From assembly GCA_947457515.1 (NCBI GenBank), contig CANGWC010000001.1:1-34152 (forward strand): a stretch of 34,152 bases of DNA. The letters are read 5' to 3'. The position numbers were made by a program, and so were the translations under genes. Shown here piece after piece: positions 7,224 to 14,362 of this stretch (positions within the stretch are counted from its first letter, which is position 1; each line of letters opens with the position of its first letter). The notes under the pieces are model-generated. The model did no database searches. It was not told where the DNA came from and saw nothing but the letters and a program-made list of their open reading frames with translations. This stretch comes from Silvanigrellaceae bacterium. GTDB lineage: Bacteria; Bdellovibrionota_B; Oligoflexia; Silvanigrellales; CANGWC01.

Positions 7224-7652
7224 ATGATTCTTGAATTCTTAATACTTTTTCTTCTATTTTCCTGTGGTACCCCCACTGAATCCATTGCGAGAAGTACATC
7301 TTCTGTTCAAACAATCACTACGACGACTTCTACAGTAACCTCCACAGCTACTACGCCTGCAACCTCTTTTGTATGGGATTCTGATTTTCAGCAAGAAACA
7401 GCTCAAGATATCTGTGATAACTCTTCATCAGTGCCTCCTCAAAATCAGTGCTACACTCTTTTTAAATACTGTGGGAGTTGTCATGGATCTTGGGTCACAA
7501 GCATGCCTTCTTTATCTCTGAAAAAAACTACCCTTCTTCAACACCTTCAAGGCACGCTTGATCCTATGCCTAGAGGTCGCTGGCAAGCTTTTTATAATTC
7601 TCCCGAAGGGAAAGATCTGATTAACTGGTTTAAAATAGGCATGCCTAAATAA
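7224..7652 (+). CDS. Lipoprotein with single CxxCH haem-binding motif (cytochrome c-like), copy 1
   Basis: Lipobox LLFSC|G; FKYCGSCHGSWV; LQGTLDPMPRGRWQAFYNSPEGKDLINWFK. Confidence 0.75.
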   Translation: MILEFLILFLLFSCGTPTESIARSTSSVQTITTTTSTVTSTATTPATSFVWDSDFQQETAQDICDNSSSVPPQNQCYTLFKYCGSCHGSWVTSMPSLSLKKTTLLQHLQGTLDPMPRGRWQAFYNSPEGKDLINWFKIGMPK

Positions 7653-7736: not shown

Positions 7737-8375
7737 ATGATTTTAGAATTTATCCTACTATTTCTAAATTTCTCATGCGGAAAAGTCATAAAACTGTACA
7801 CTCCTCATCAAAAAGAGCCTCATCAAAAAATTGAGACCCCTGAATCTTTAAAATCAGAATTCACCTCACTCACTTCAACGGAAACTCCCCCTGCTATGAC
7901 AGAGATACCCTCTGCTCCACCTGTTACCCCCGATACCATTTCGAAAGCCGACCCAATAACCTTTCCTGTGGATAACTCTACAGTCACGCCTGCACCAGCA
8001 GATAACTCGTCGACACCACCAGCACCCATAATAGCTAAAGAAGCAGAAAATCCATCAAGTACTCCGACCTCCGTCATAACTTCTTCACTGGTTTGGGACT
8101 CTGAATTGCAACAAGATGCTGCGGAAGAAGTTTGTAATCGTTCTTCAAATATTCCTCCTCGGAATCACTGTCTCACTCTTTTCAAGTATTGTGGCAATTG
8201 TCATGGATCTTGGGTCACTAGTATGTCTTCTTTATCTTTAAAAAAAGATCCTATTCTTCAGCATCTTCAGGGAACGATTGATCCTATGCCTAAAGATCGT
8301 TGGCAAATTTTTTATGATTCCCCAGAAGGGAAAGCTTTAATCGAATGGTTTAAAGCTGGTATCCCGCTCCAATAG
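7737..8375 (+). CDS. Lipoprotein with single CxxCH haem-binding motif (cytochrome c-like), copy 2 with expanded P/T/S-rich linker
   Basis: Lipobox-like LNFSC|G; FKYCGNCHGSWV; LQGTIDPMPKDRWQIFYDSPEGKALIEWFK; paralogous to preceding gene. Confidence 0.75.
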   Translation: MILEFILLFLNFSCGKVIKLYTPHQKEPHQKIETPESLKSEFTSLTSTETPPAMTEIPSAPPVTPDTISKADPITFPVDNSTVTPAPADNSSTPPAPIIAKEAENPSSTPTSVITSSLVWDSELQQDAAEEVCNRSSNIPPRNHCLTLFKYCGNCHGSWVTSMSSLSLKKDPILQHLQGTIDPMPKDRWQIFYDSPEGKALIEWFKAGIPLQ

Positions 8376-9524: not shown

Positions 9525-9555
9525 CGTTTGTTATTTTAAAATACAATATGATCAA

Positions 9556-11193
9556 ATGCTAATTCTACTCTTTTTATTTTCGTCTTGTATTTCTTCTCAA
9601 GTAAATTCTGAGACTTCACCCTTAGATGATTCAACCCCTCAATCAGCTTCCACAAAGAAAGCTCCTATACCTAATTCATCTTTAAATTCAATGTCTTCTA
9701 CAACAGCATTTAATTCTGGACCGAATTTATCACCTGCAAATGCTGAAAGTGATCTCAATACAAGTAATGTGGAAATGACAAATTCTGCTCCTATCCAAAA
9801 CTCTGTACCTATAGAAAACGCTTCTCAAAACTCACAACTTCAAAATCCTAATTTGGAGAATAACTCTGAAAGCTTAGATAATGAAGAAAACTTATCCGGT
9901 AATATTACAAATGGAAACGAGATCAATACAGCTCTAGATAACAATTCTACAAATGAACTCAATACACCTGTATCAACGCCCAAAAAAGTTTCTATAAAAC
10001 AAAAGACAACTCCTGATCTCAATACAGTTTTAGATCAAAAAACATTAACAGAATATGAAGTTAAAAAAGGTAACACCTTGTGGGATATTTCTAAAAGATA
10101 TTTACATAATCCCAGAAGCTGGAGAAAAATTTGGACAAAGAATAAACCAAAGATTCCTAATCCCGATAAAATCTACCCCCATCAAAAAATTATCGTAGAA
10201 AGTTCAGCTTCTATGTCTGGAGATGCTTCTTCCTTAACTCTGTCTGATTCCCAAAAAATTGCTTCTGGATCTTCTTTAAATCCAGAAGCAATTAAAGAAT
10301 TTGACCCCCACTCTATCGCTACAGTGGTCAGAGGTGAAGAAATTGGTGTATTCAAACCTATAAGATTGCAGCATAATGATATTATAGAACTTTTTAAGCC
10401 TTTGCCTGTGAATCCTGAATGGTTAGATAAAGACGGAGAAATCATTCCTACTCATGAAGTTACCGAATCTGATGACTTCATTGTTTTCGAGAACTTTATT
10501 CCCGAAACTCAGATGCTTCTTAAGAATCCTGGGTTTCTTACAAAAAATCCTCCTTTTACCGTGGGAGAAATTTCTTCTTCCCCTTCAACCTCTTTACTGG
10601 GACAATGGGGGAATACCCAATCTAATAGTGTATTTGCAACTTTTGATTATCGTCTTAATCTAAAACCTGGACAGCTTTTTCATACGATTCGAAAAAATGA
10701 ACTTTCCTCAACTCTTTTTTATGAACCAGAACAGTCCGGAGAGTTTTGGTCATATACAGGAACTGTAGGAGTTCTTAAGGTTGGTCCTGAACTTGTAGAA
10801 CTTTATACAGAGTCTAGCCCTATGGGAATTTCCGCTGGAGATAAGATCATTCCTTATAAAAATATCTATAAAACGATTAATTTAAATAAAATTGAGGATA
10901 CATTTACATTCCAGTCCCGGGTGGAAGCTATTGCTGAAGGTATTGGATATTTAGGAGGGAAAAATCAATTTATCTATCTCTGGAAAAACGCTTCCAGCAT
11001 TCAAGTGAATGATGAATTTGATCTTTATATGCCACCCTCTGGGATCATGGGCTTTGGAGATGTTGCTACTCATGGACTCAAGCAAGTTGCTAGAGCGAAA
11101 GTGATCGATATGAATGATGAATCTATCACTGCTATTATCCTAAAATCACTTCAAGAAGTTAGTTTAGGTGCTTACGCCTGGCCAGGTAAATAA
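9556..11193 (+). CDS. LysM-domain lipoprotein with N/S/T-rich linker (start re-assigned from 9475)
   Basis: In-frame ATG 9556 gives MLILLFLFSSC (lipobox); YEVKKGNTLWDISKRYLHNPRSWRKIWTKNKPKIPNPDKIYPHQKIIV = LysM. Confidence 0.82.
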   Translation: MLILLFLFSSCISSQVNSETSPLDDSTPQSASTKKAPIPNSSLNSMSSTTAFNSGPNLSPANAESDLNTSNVEMTNSAPIQNSVPIENASQNSQLQNPNLENNSESLDNEENLSGNITNGNEINTALDNNSTNELNTPVSTPKKVSIKQKTTPDLNTVLDQKTLTEYEVKKGNTLWDISKRYLHNPRSWRKIWTKNKPKIPNPDKIYPHQKIIVESSASMSGDASSLTLSDSQKIASGSSLNPEAIKEFDPHSIATVVRGEEIGVFKPIRLQHNDIIELFKPLPVNPEWLDKDGEIIPTHEVTESDDFIVFENFIPETQMLLKNPGFLTKNPPFTVGEISSSPSTSLLGQWGNTQSNSVFATFDYRLNLKPGQLFHTIRKNELSSTLFYEPEQSGEFWSYTGTVGVLKVGPELVELYTESSPMGISAGDKIIPYKNIYKTINLNKIEDTFTFQSRVEAIAEGIGYLGGKNQFIYLWKNASSIQVNDEFDLYMPPSGIMGFGDVATHGLKQVARAKVIDMNDESITAIILKSLQEVSLGAYAWPGK

Positions 11194-11232: not shown

Positions 11233-11262
11233 TTGATCATAAACTGAAACTTGTGCTATGTA
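11233..11262 (+). promoter_or_regulatory. Candidate sigma70-like promoter for the ncRNA: -35 TTGATC (11233-11238), 18-bp spacer, -10 TATGTA (11257-11262)
   Basis: Hexamer match and spacing read directly; predicted start near 11269. Confidence 0.5.
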
Positions 11263-11268
11263 TGGTCA

Positions 11269-11448
11269 GTACCCTTGGTACACCGAGATAAGCATGCTCA
11301 GAGCTTCATCTCGACCTTTCTTTATAAGATAACTCTCCTATTGAATTCCAATCGTGCGATCTTTTCCGCGTTATCTTCCACCTTCCTCACGCTTGAGGCT
11401 TGACGGAGCTGTCGGCAGCCTGAGCATGCCCGCAGCTCAAATTTTTTT
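11269..11448 (+). ncRNA. Candidate structured non-coding RNA (~180 nt), family unidentified
   Basis: Locally higher GC, no ORF; stems GTACC/GGTAC (11269-11281), CGAGATAAGC/GCTTcATCTCG (11284-11313), AAGATAAC/GTTATCTT (11326-11333 / 11370-11377), CCTCA/TGAGG (11385-11398), terminator GAGCTG..CAGCTC + T7. Confidence 0.65.
11406..11448 (+). terminator. Rho-independent terminator of the candidate ncRNA
   Basis: GAGCTGtCGGCA-gcctgagca-TGCCcGCAGCTC followed by AAATTTTTTT. Confidence 0.75.
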
Positions 11449-11785
11449 ACGACGTATATTTCTTTACAACCGGCATCCCAGGTTGATCATAAATAGATGA
11501 TAAAACATCACAAGCTAGTTCAAAATCATCAATATTGAGATAGTTTTTCTCAGACATCACAAGTTTTAATTTCTTAAACATTTCCTGTAAGTGGATATTC
11601 TGTTCTGTGAGATAATCAACTTCAGATCTGAGTTGAATCACATCACTTCCCATTCTCGTGATAGCATCCATCATGTACTGTAATTGTTGAGCTGTGATAA
11701 CTTCTTCTTTTGCCAGTGGCGCTGGAAGAAAATCTAAGATAATTTTATCTGTACCTTTTTGAACTAAGGTTTTAATGTTAGACAT
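11447..11785 (-). CDS. Hypothetical coiled-coil protein
   Basis: 112-aa ORF, heptad-like QLRSEVDYLTEQNIHLQEMFKKLKL; own RBS region (gggggaaga). Confidence 0.6.
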   Translation of the reverse strand: MSNIKTLVQKGTDKIILDFLPAPLAKEEVITAQQLQYMMDAITRMGSDVIQLRSEVDYLTEQNIHLQEMFKKLKLVMSEKNYLNIDDFELACDVLSSIYDQPGMPVVKKYTS

Positions 11786-11869: not shown

Positions 11870-14362
11870 ATGATGGGTCTATTTAAAAAAGTTTTTGGAA
11901 CTAAAAACGAACGAGAACTTAAGAGTATTCAATCAATTCTTGAACAAATCAATCAGTTCCAAGATCCCTTAAGGCAGATCTCTAATGAAGATCTTCAAGC
12001 TAAAACTCCTTATTTCAAGGAACAGCTAGGTAATGGCTGCCCACTGGATAAGCTATTACCTGAGGCTTTTGCTGTGGTCAGAGAAGCCAGTGATCGTATC
12101 TTGAAGAAACGTCATTTTGATGTTCAGCTTTTAGGAGGAATCGTTCTCCATCAAGGGAAAATCGCTGAAATGAAAACAGGAGAGGGTAAAACTCTAACGG
12201 CTACTGCCCCTGTTTATCTCAACGCTTTGATGGGTAAAGGCGTTCATGTTGTGACTGTGAATGAATATCTTACTCGTATTCAAGCAGAAGAGATGGGACG
12301 TGTTTATCAATTTCTTGGATTATCATTAGGTTGTGTTATGACAGGCCAATCGGATTCCGAAAGGAAAAGTGCTTATCAAGCAGATATCACTTATGGAACA
12401 AATAATGAGTTAGGCTTTGATTATCTCAGAGATAATATGAAAGTCAGTAAACAAGATTTCTGTCAAAGAGGTCACTTCTTTGCCATTGTGGATGAAGTGG
12501 ATTCCATCCTTATTGATGAAGCAAGAACTCCTTTAATTATCAGTGGTCCCACAGACCAAACCTCAGATAAGTATCTGATTGCTAATACTGCCGTAAGAGG
12601 CCTCAGAAGAGATATTGATTACACTGTAGATGAAAAAGGAAGAGCATGTTCTCTTTCTGAAGTGGGAACTCAAAAAGTCGAAGAGAGACTGGCATTAGGC
12701 AATCTCTATTCTCCTGAAAACATTGATCTTGTTCATGCTGTGAATCAGGCTCTCAAAGCCCAAGTTCTTTTTCAAAAAGATGATCATTACATTATTCAAG
12801 AAGGCCAAATCATTATTGTAGATGAATTTACAGGCCGACTCATGCAAGGAAGACGTTACTCTGATGGTCTTCATCAAGCTTTAGAAGCTAAAGAAAATGT
12901 TTCTATCCAAAAAGAAAATCAAACTCTTGCAACGGTAACTCTCCAAAACTATTTTAGAATGTATCAAAAACTTTCTGGAATGACAGGAACTGCAGATACA
13001 GAAGCTGTGGAATTTCATAAGATCTATGGCCTAGATGTTGTGGTGATCCCTACAAATAAATCCATGATCAGAAAGGATCATGATGATATTCTCTTTGCAA
13101 AACAATCTTCTAAATTCTCAGCTGTTGCTGATGAGATATTAGCTGCTTACCAAAAAGGACAACCTGTTCTGGTAGGAACTGTCTCCATCGAGAAAAGTGA
13201 ACTCCTCAGCACTCTTCTCAATCAAAAGAAAGTTCCCCATGTTGTTCTGAATGCTAAACAACATGAAAAAGAAGCTACGATTATTGCTGAAGCTGGACAA
13301 CAAGGCAAAGTCACCATTGCAACCAATATGGCTGGACGAGGAACGGATATTATCTTAGGACCTGGAGTTGTAGAACTGGGTGGTCTCTATGTCATTGGTA
13401 CTGAAAGACACGAAAGTCGTCGTATTGATAATCAACTCCGAGGAAGATCTGGACGTCAAGGAGACCCCGGAGAGAGTAAATTCTACCTTTCTTGGGAAGA
13501 TGAACTCATGAAACGTTTCAATAATAGAGCAAGTCAGATTGTAATGCGTTTTGCAGGAGATGAGCCTATTACCGATCCTAGCCTCACTAAAGTCATTGGC
13601 CAAGTTCAGAAACGAGTAGAAGGCTTTAATTACGATCTGAGAAAGCATCTTCTAGAATATGATGATGTCCTCAATAAACAACGTAAAGCCATTTATGAAA
13701 CACGCATGGCCATCCTCGAAAAAGCTGATATTAAAACACTTCTTTTCGCAGAAACTTTAGGTACCGTTGTTCTCACTTTCTGTGAATCCACACTTCCTCA
13801 TTTCTCTTCTCAAGATGTGATCTCCGTTTCTTTCCCGGAATTAGAAAGAAACCTTTTCCGTAAATTTAATCTTGTGATCCCTTTCACTGAAGCAGAAAGA
13901 AAACAACCTCTCTTCGCTAAAAAAGAACTTCTCGATCTCCTCTCCCAAAAACTCATTCAAAGTTACGAAGAGAAAGAAGCTCAATTTGATAAAGAGAACC
14001 TTCGGGAATTAGAGCGTTGGACCATGCTCCAAACCATCGATTCTCTTTGGAAAGATCATCTTCTTACCATCGATCATATTAAAGATGGAATTGGCCTGAG
14101 AGGCTATGGCCAGAAAGATCCTCTTCAAGAGTACAAGAAAGAGGCCTTTGAACTCTTCCAAAGGCTTATTGTGGATATTAAAGTTCAATCCTTAGAGCGT
14201 ATCATTAGCATTCAACCTAACCTTGCTATGCGCCTTGCAGAAGAGATTGAAAAAGAAATGAGAACTGAAATTGAAGCTTTACAGAAAGCAGAGCTTTCAT
14301 CTCAGGATAAAGTGATCTCTTTAGATTCTAAAAAGAAACAGAAGAAAAATAAAAAATCTTAG
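11870..14362 (+). CDS. secA: Preprotein translocase subunit SecA
   Basis: Walker A MKTGEGKT, VDEVDSILIDEARTPLIISGP, GRGTDIILG, LRGRSGRQGDPG. Confidence 0.97.
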   Translation: MMGLFKKVFGTKNERELKSIQSILEQINQFQDPLRQISNEDLQAKTPYFKEQLGNGCPLDKLLPEAFAVVREASDRILKKRHFDVQLLGGIVLHQGKIAEMKTGEGKTLTATAPVYLNALMGKGVHVVTVNEYLTRIQAEEMGRVYQFLGLSLGCVMTGQSDSERKSAYQADITYGTNNELGFDYLRDNMKVSKQDFCQRGHFFAIVDEVDSILIDEARTPLIISGPTDQTSDKYLIANTAVRGLRRDIDYTVDEKGRACSLSEVGTQKVEERLALGNLYSPENIDLVHAVNQALKAQVLFQKDDHYIIQEGQIIIVDEFTGRLMQGRRYSDGLHQALEAKENVSIQKENQTLATVTLQNYFRMYQKLSGMTGTADTEAVEFHKIYGLDVVVIPTNKSMIRKDHDDILFAKQSSKFSAVADEILAAYQKGQPVLVGTVSIEKSELLSTLLNQKKVPHVVLNAKQHEKEATIIAEAGQQGKVTIATNMAGRGTDIILGPGVVELGGLYVIGTERHESRRIDNQLRGRSGRQGDPGESKFYLSWEDELMKRFNNRASQIVMRFAGDEPITDPSLTKVIGQVQKRVEGFNYDLRKHLLEYDDVLNKQRKAIYETRMAILEKADIKTLLFAETLGTVVLTFCESTLPHFSSQDVISVSFPELERNLFRKFNLVIPFTEAERKQPLFAKKELLDLLSQKLIQSYEEKEAQFDKENLRELERWTMLQTIDSLWKDHLLTIDHIKDGIGLRGYGQKDPLQEYKKEAFELFQRLIVDIKVQSLERIISIQPNLAMRLAEEIEKEMRTEIEALQKAELSSQDKVISLDSKKKQKKNKKS

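Follow-up and report, generated by a model that had tools for sequence, protein, structure and literature searches.

Several bacterial RNAs without a coding function, among them 6S and CsrB, hold or titrate their proteins, while RepG of Helicobacter pylori, an organism without Hfq, makes use of a C/U-rich terminator loop. RepG is an sRNA that pairs with a G-rich mRNA leader (PMC8295292). The LhrC RNAs of Listeria (PMC4132741) and the staphylococcal UCCC-type sRNAs are, like the RNA described here, stand-alone, ended by a terminator and present in more than one copy; they carry several unpaired CU or UCC motifs and belong to low-GC hosts in which Hfq is not needed. No sequence relationship to them is known (the comparison was made through Rfam only), and the present RNA differs in that its CU-rich linker lies between two hairpins with complementary loops and in that target pairing is here only putative. 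In comparison with RepG, the terminator loop is not CU-rich and is conserved as the partner of the RNA's own 5' hairpin loop.

Two further classes share general traits with the locus. 6S RNA (RF00013) is of similar length and also stand-alone, whereas the present RNA consists of separate hairpins with no long open duplex or central bubble; this identity was rejected, since the Rfam 6S model places 6S at another locus in the relatives, in line with the first-pass annotation, which had been unable to match the sequence to 6S. 6S RNA itself was found in 15 of 15 order relatives and not in the 74%-complete genome of the window (G000). CsrB/C-type sponges are likewise stand-alone and structured, and the host order encodes CsrA; they were set aside as well, as the repeated GGA hairpin loops are absent and the window RNA contains a single GGA (GACGGAG).

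Here, we describe a segment of the window (the whole 34,152-nt stretch of DNA that was analysed), some 180 bases long and flanked by two protein genes, which, judged by comparative sequence evidence, is an undescribed stand-alone non-coding RNA gene of Silvanigrellales. It would add a covariation-supported RNA family to an order that includes Fluviispira and the Daphnia parasite Spirobacillus. The explanation that we hold, on balance, to be probable as a whole is that of an independent RNA of this order, with a contact between the loops of its 5' hairpin P1 and of its terminator, which regulates mRNAs post-transcriptionally in trans without Hfq or ProQ.

The RNA locus and its homologues

All the parts of an RNA gene proposed by the first-pass annotation were found in the window where they had been placed. 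The features of the locus, with the evidence on which each rests, are the following:

9547-11193, plus strand: LysM protein gene, upstream neighbour syntenic with the RNA (homology search)
11233-11262, plus strand: predicted promoter, TTGATC (11233-11238), 18-nt spacer, TATGTA (11257-11262), with a TG extension (TGCTATGTA) (window sequence and relatives)
11269-11448, plus strand: predicted RNA gene, about 180 nt (covariance-model match, synteny, homologues)
11269-11281, plus strand: P0, 5' hairpin GUACC-CUU-GGUAC (fold; a 5' hairpin of other sequence in every copy A)
11284-11313, plus strand: P1, long hairpin (CGAGATAAGC...GCTTcATCTCG), loop at 11294-11302 with a kissing sequence (fold, covariation)
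11296-11301, plus strand: putative kissing sequence 1, GCUCAG (GUUCGG in relatives), in the P1 loop (10-nt complement spanning 11292-11301)
11314-11384, plus strand: CU-rich linker with conserved motifs (CCUUUC; CUCUCCUAUUGAAUUCC; UUCCACCUUCC) (alignment of relatives)
11326-11377, plus strand: window-specific stem AAGAUAAC/GUUAUCUU inside the linker (window fold; absent from the relatives' consensus structure)
11385-11398, plus strand: P3, hairpin CCUCA-CGCU-UGAGG (CCCUC-nnnn-GAGGG in relatives) (consensus structure, covariation)
11406-11448, plus strand: P4, terminator hairpin plus U7 (GAGCTG...CAGCTC, then T7) (window sequence, consensus structure, covariation)
11420-11425, plus strand: putative kissing sequence 2, CUGAGC (CCGAAC in relatives), in the terminator loop (10-nt complement spanning 11420-11429)
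11447-11785, minus strand: convergent 112-aa ORF, conserved adjoining secA in order relatives (homology search)
11870-14362, plus strand: secA

From the position of the promoter we infer a transcription start at about 11267-11270, and the covariance-model match in the window extends over 11267-11449 (E 2.3e-34, the window sequence itself being part of the model). The GC content of the RNA region, claimed to exceed that of its surroundings, reaches 52%, compared with about 27-35% just outside. The minimum free energy is -57.6 kcal/mol (z = -2.0) and 5 of 200 shuffles were equally good, so that the folding energy by itself gives only modest support.

The suggested comparison with Rfam (Rfam 15) produced no match to the RNA that reached the gathering threshold, whichever strand was searched and in the relatives as well as in the window, and the window RNA was unmatched on both strands even with permissive thresholds. 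The window contains no tRNA or tmRNA, and the reading frames of the RNA hold no candidate coding sequence of note. A lack of conservation or covariation, or a strong match to a known family, had been named among the outcomes that would speak against an undescribed structured RNA; both were looked at, and the homologues at the equivalent place covary and Rfam is without a match. A library search on Silvanigrella and small RNA returned no relevant paper. The genome paper of S. cienkowskii counts, in its part on ncRNAs, six of them with no further detail there (PMC12321486), and the present RNA may have been automatically annotated among these six.

The genome of the window is 1.17 Mb and 74% complete, and the genomes compared include no relative from its own family. 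A blastn search of the RNA across the relatives gave noise only; as the RNA is too diverged for blastn, homologues were sought via synteny. Homologues of the LysM protein were found in seven relatives of the order, and directly 3' of each of them lies an RNA whose parts follow one another as in the window. The first covariance model, built from the window and these seven LysM-linked homologues, detected the RNA in 15 of the 16 order genomes (E 1e-34 to 1e-65) at a LysM/TPR-linked locus, the sole genome without a match being a 72%-complete assembly; seven members of the genus g2 lay outside the model and were matched all the same (E about 1e-38 to 1e-41). Each of these seven also has a second, shorter paralogue (copy B, E 1e-19 to 1e-25) at another locus, with about 53% RNA identity to copy A, while most genera and the window genome have a single detected copy. 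In 63 genomes of the class (the phylum set being the same 63) a second model gave no convincing match beyond the order; the weak matches there (E 0.01-0.13) were rejected, and the two inspected (L085, L086) lack the motifs. RNA identity is 45-76%, against 13-65% for the flanks, and is the higher of the two in every pair compared.

A weak third relative of about 30 bits in G013 (L098, G013:C83:1329-1547, minus strand), without the kissing hexamers, was left out; it is possibly a decayed or diverged copy of the RNA.

The promoter TTGATC-N18-TATGTA claimed by the first-pass annotation is present, and relatives keep in copy A a TTGC[AG]-like (TTGCA-like) -35 element and a TGnTA extended -10 element, with constant spacing (17 or 18) between them. 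In 4 of 6 copy-B loci the elements are TTGCAA and a TATAAC-like -10, and the 3' end of the family is formed by P4 followed by a T-rich tail. A simple promoter and terminator scan of the window did not list these particular sites, probably because the promoter is off consensus and the terminator too irregular for the pattern; both are better judged by their conservation in relatives. What the comparison establishes is a predicted discrete unit of about 180-200 nt (P0, P1, P3 and P4/terminator) with its own promoter, conserved across the order and with a paralogue in one genus.

Copy A follows a LysM gene or a TPR lipoprotein gene (the latter in the genus g2, in which sequence search found no LysM homologue); opposite it stand a small convergent gene and a gene for leucyl aminopeptidase. 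Copy B follows a gene for an HflX-like GTPase, with msrA or other genes opposite it. The gene next to the RNA on its 3' side is convergent or distant in the loci examined. In the comparison of secA-upstream regions, proposed at the outset, the relatives have no RNA at their secA junction, where an ABC transporter or other ORFs are found, and the RNA lies instead 5-13 kb away beside the LysM or TPR gene, so that the apparent non-conservation at the junction was discarded. These 5-13 kb are missing in the window, with the RNA still retained, and the window RNA therefore faces the secA-linked convergent ORF. Convergent downstream genes and the survival of the RNA through a deletion of about 5-13 kb argue for a stand-alone RNA and not a riboswitch.

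The 112-aa ORF is a member of a conserved but unnamed family with a motif around DDFxLACDV, found beside secA in the relatives examined and without a Pfam match. In Spirobacillus-like genomes (loci L039 and L040, in both at 173-1441) the gene 3' of the secA-linked ORF is, by eye, Cas1-like, with a Cas2-like ORF beyond. Elsewhere in the window (7224-7652 and 7737-8375), two tandem paralogous small lipoprotein-like ORFs, neither with a Pfam cytochrome match, share a C-terminal segment in which a CGxCH (haem-like) motif occurs.

Hairpins, linker and putative mode of action

In the alignments (A3-A6, built from locus references) the covariation of P1, P3 and P4 is strong and supports the predicted hairpins. 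P1, of 10-13 pairs across the family, shows compensatory double changes in 9 of 11 pairs (32 cells), with a covariation of 0.662 compared with 0.334 in shuffled and at most 0.21 in slid alignments; P3 and P4 have double changes in 10 of 15 pairs, and P3, P4 and the kissing pairs taken together are paired in 94% of cells, with a score of 0.384 against 0.156 for shuffles, none of 500 of which did as well. Sliding the partners by 1-3 columns lowers pairing from 87-94% to 37-55%. P1 of copy B is made of different pairs (GAAGCC/GGCUUC type) and has a larger loop in which GUUCGG is retained. The long stem AAGATAAC/GTTATCTT described from the window is indeed there, but it is peculiar to this genome and falls outside the conserved core; what the linker conserves are CC-rich motifs common to both paralogues.

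The RNA would regulate mRNAs in trans and post-transcriptionally, and neither Hfq nor ProQ would take part; the CU-rich motifs of its linker would pair with mRNA segments rich in purines (Shine-Dalgarno-like). Hfq and ProQ were detected in none of the 16 order genomes, while the positive controls matched, and CsrA was detected in 15 of 16, absent only from the incomplete window genome. A linker rich in C and U points to pairing that needs no Hfq, as with LhrC (PMC4132741). By its sequence the RNA fits the trans-acting CU-rich sRNAs in being a stand-alone unit with promoter and terminator; an Hfq-dependent trans-acting sRNA would be at odds with the failure to detect Hfq in any of the 16 genomes, and a riboswitch or attenuator with the lack of a co-directional regulated gene downstream in the loci examined.

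Pairing was evaluated between the linker and the translation-start regions in 400 kb of G005; a Shine-Dalgarno signal is present in these regions, and CU-rich RNA binds them better than it binds coding sequence. With the copy-A linker 25 of 60 dinucleotide shuffles were equally good, and the copy-B result is marginal (1 of 60 shuffles as good, 4 of 60 against the coding control). A search for perfect antisense sites to the M3 motif returned mainly the RNA itself and no dedicated mRNA target. A bolder proposal, tentative and somewhat doubtful, is that of a new RNA class, a ring closed by kissing of the 5' hairpin and the terminator loop, acting, together with its paralogue, as a main post-transcriptional regulator in an order where Hfq and ProQ go undetected; in such an order the RNA offers a handle on how these bacteria regulate mRNAs.

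The same pairing results are among the points in favour of an RNA in which the conserved linker motifs and the looped architecture hold or titrate a protein instead of pairing with mRNA, since start regions were bound by the copy-A linker no better than by shuffles and by the copy-B linker only marginally. The long conserved unpaired motifs common to both paralogues and the occurrence of CsrA would also suit it. GGA motifs are, however, too few for a CsrA sponge, there is no 6S-like open duplex, and 6S lies elsewhere in the relatives; we judge protein binding unlikely, and trans-acting regulation of mRNAs is the preferred reading.

The probable loop-loop contact

The first-pass annotation had pointed to exactly complementary 10-nt segments at 11292-11301 and 11420-11429, and these are exact and the sole distant inverted 10-mer pair in the window RNA; when loops are shuffled, complementarity as good as that of the two loops arises with P = 0.0002. 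Both paralogues carry GUUCGG in the P1 loop and CCGAAC in the P4 loop. The window has GCUCAG/CUGAGC, in which two of the six pairs differ from the relatives on both sides, and by these two compensatory changes the contact is supported: the P1 loop probably pairs with the loop of the P4 terminator, as had been suggested. Copy A of G003 and G007 has CCGGAC, with the pair maintained as U-G, and in G012 five of the six loop bases pair. No block in the 5' half of the RNA is more conserved than the kissing hexamers (TTCGG is invariant in relatives), which are conserved in the P4 loop too. In alignment A5 the window loop is one base out of register and the pairing counts omit the window kissing pairs; the hexamers of window and relatives were compared by hand. 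As the kissing helix shows one independent double-change lineage and U-G variants, with near-invariance elsewhere, its support is good, not final.

The contact would bring both ends of the RNA together around the CU-rich, mostly unpaired linker and would protect or present the RNA, which makes it a precise, testable structural prediction. It might form inside a single molecule, or else join separate molecules or the paralogues. Dimerisation by kissing of copies A and B, or of two A copies, would explain why both keep GUUCGG/CCGAAC despite their low overall identity; but a single copy is all that was detected in most genera and in the window genome, and covariation cannot separate intramolecular from intermolecular contact, so we consider it improbable.

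Less support was found for the other role suggested for these loops, a conditional terminator or switch in which pairing of the P1 loop opens or closes P4 and thereby controls read-through. The ten complementary bases of the window could invade the terminator, but relatives have only about six, confined to the loops, the convergent next gene in the relatives examined leaves nothing co-directional to control, and P1, P3 and P4 are retained at the second, unrelated locus of copy B; a switch is therefore very unlikely. Finally, that the RNA is only the structured 3' UTR and terminator of the LysM gene, without a function of its own, is scarcely credible: it does lie directly after that gene on the same strand, but its promoter is conserved, its conservation is stronger than that of the flanks, copy A is kept in g2 behind the TPR lipoprotein gene, where sequence searches revealed no LysM homologue, and the paralogue stands after an HflX-type gene.
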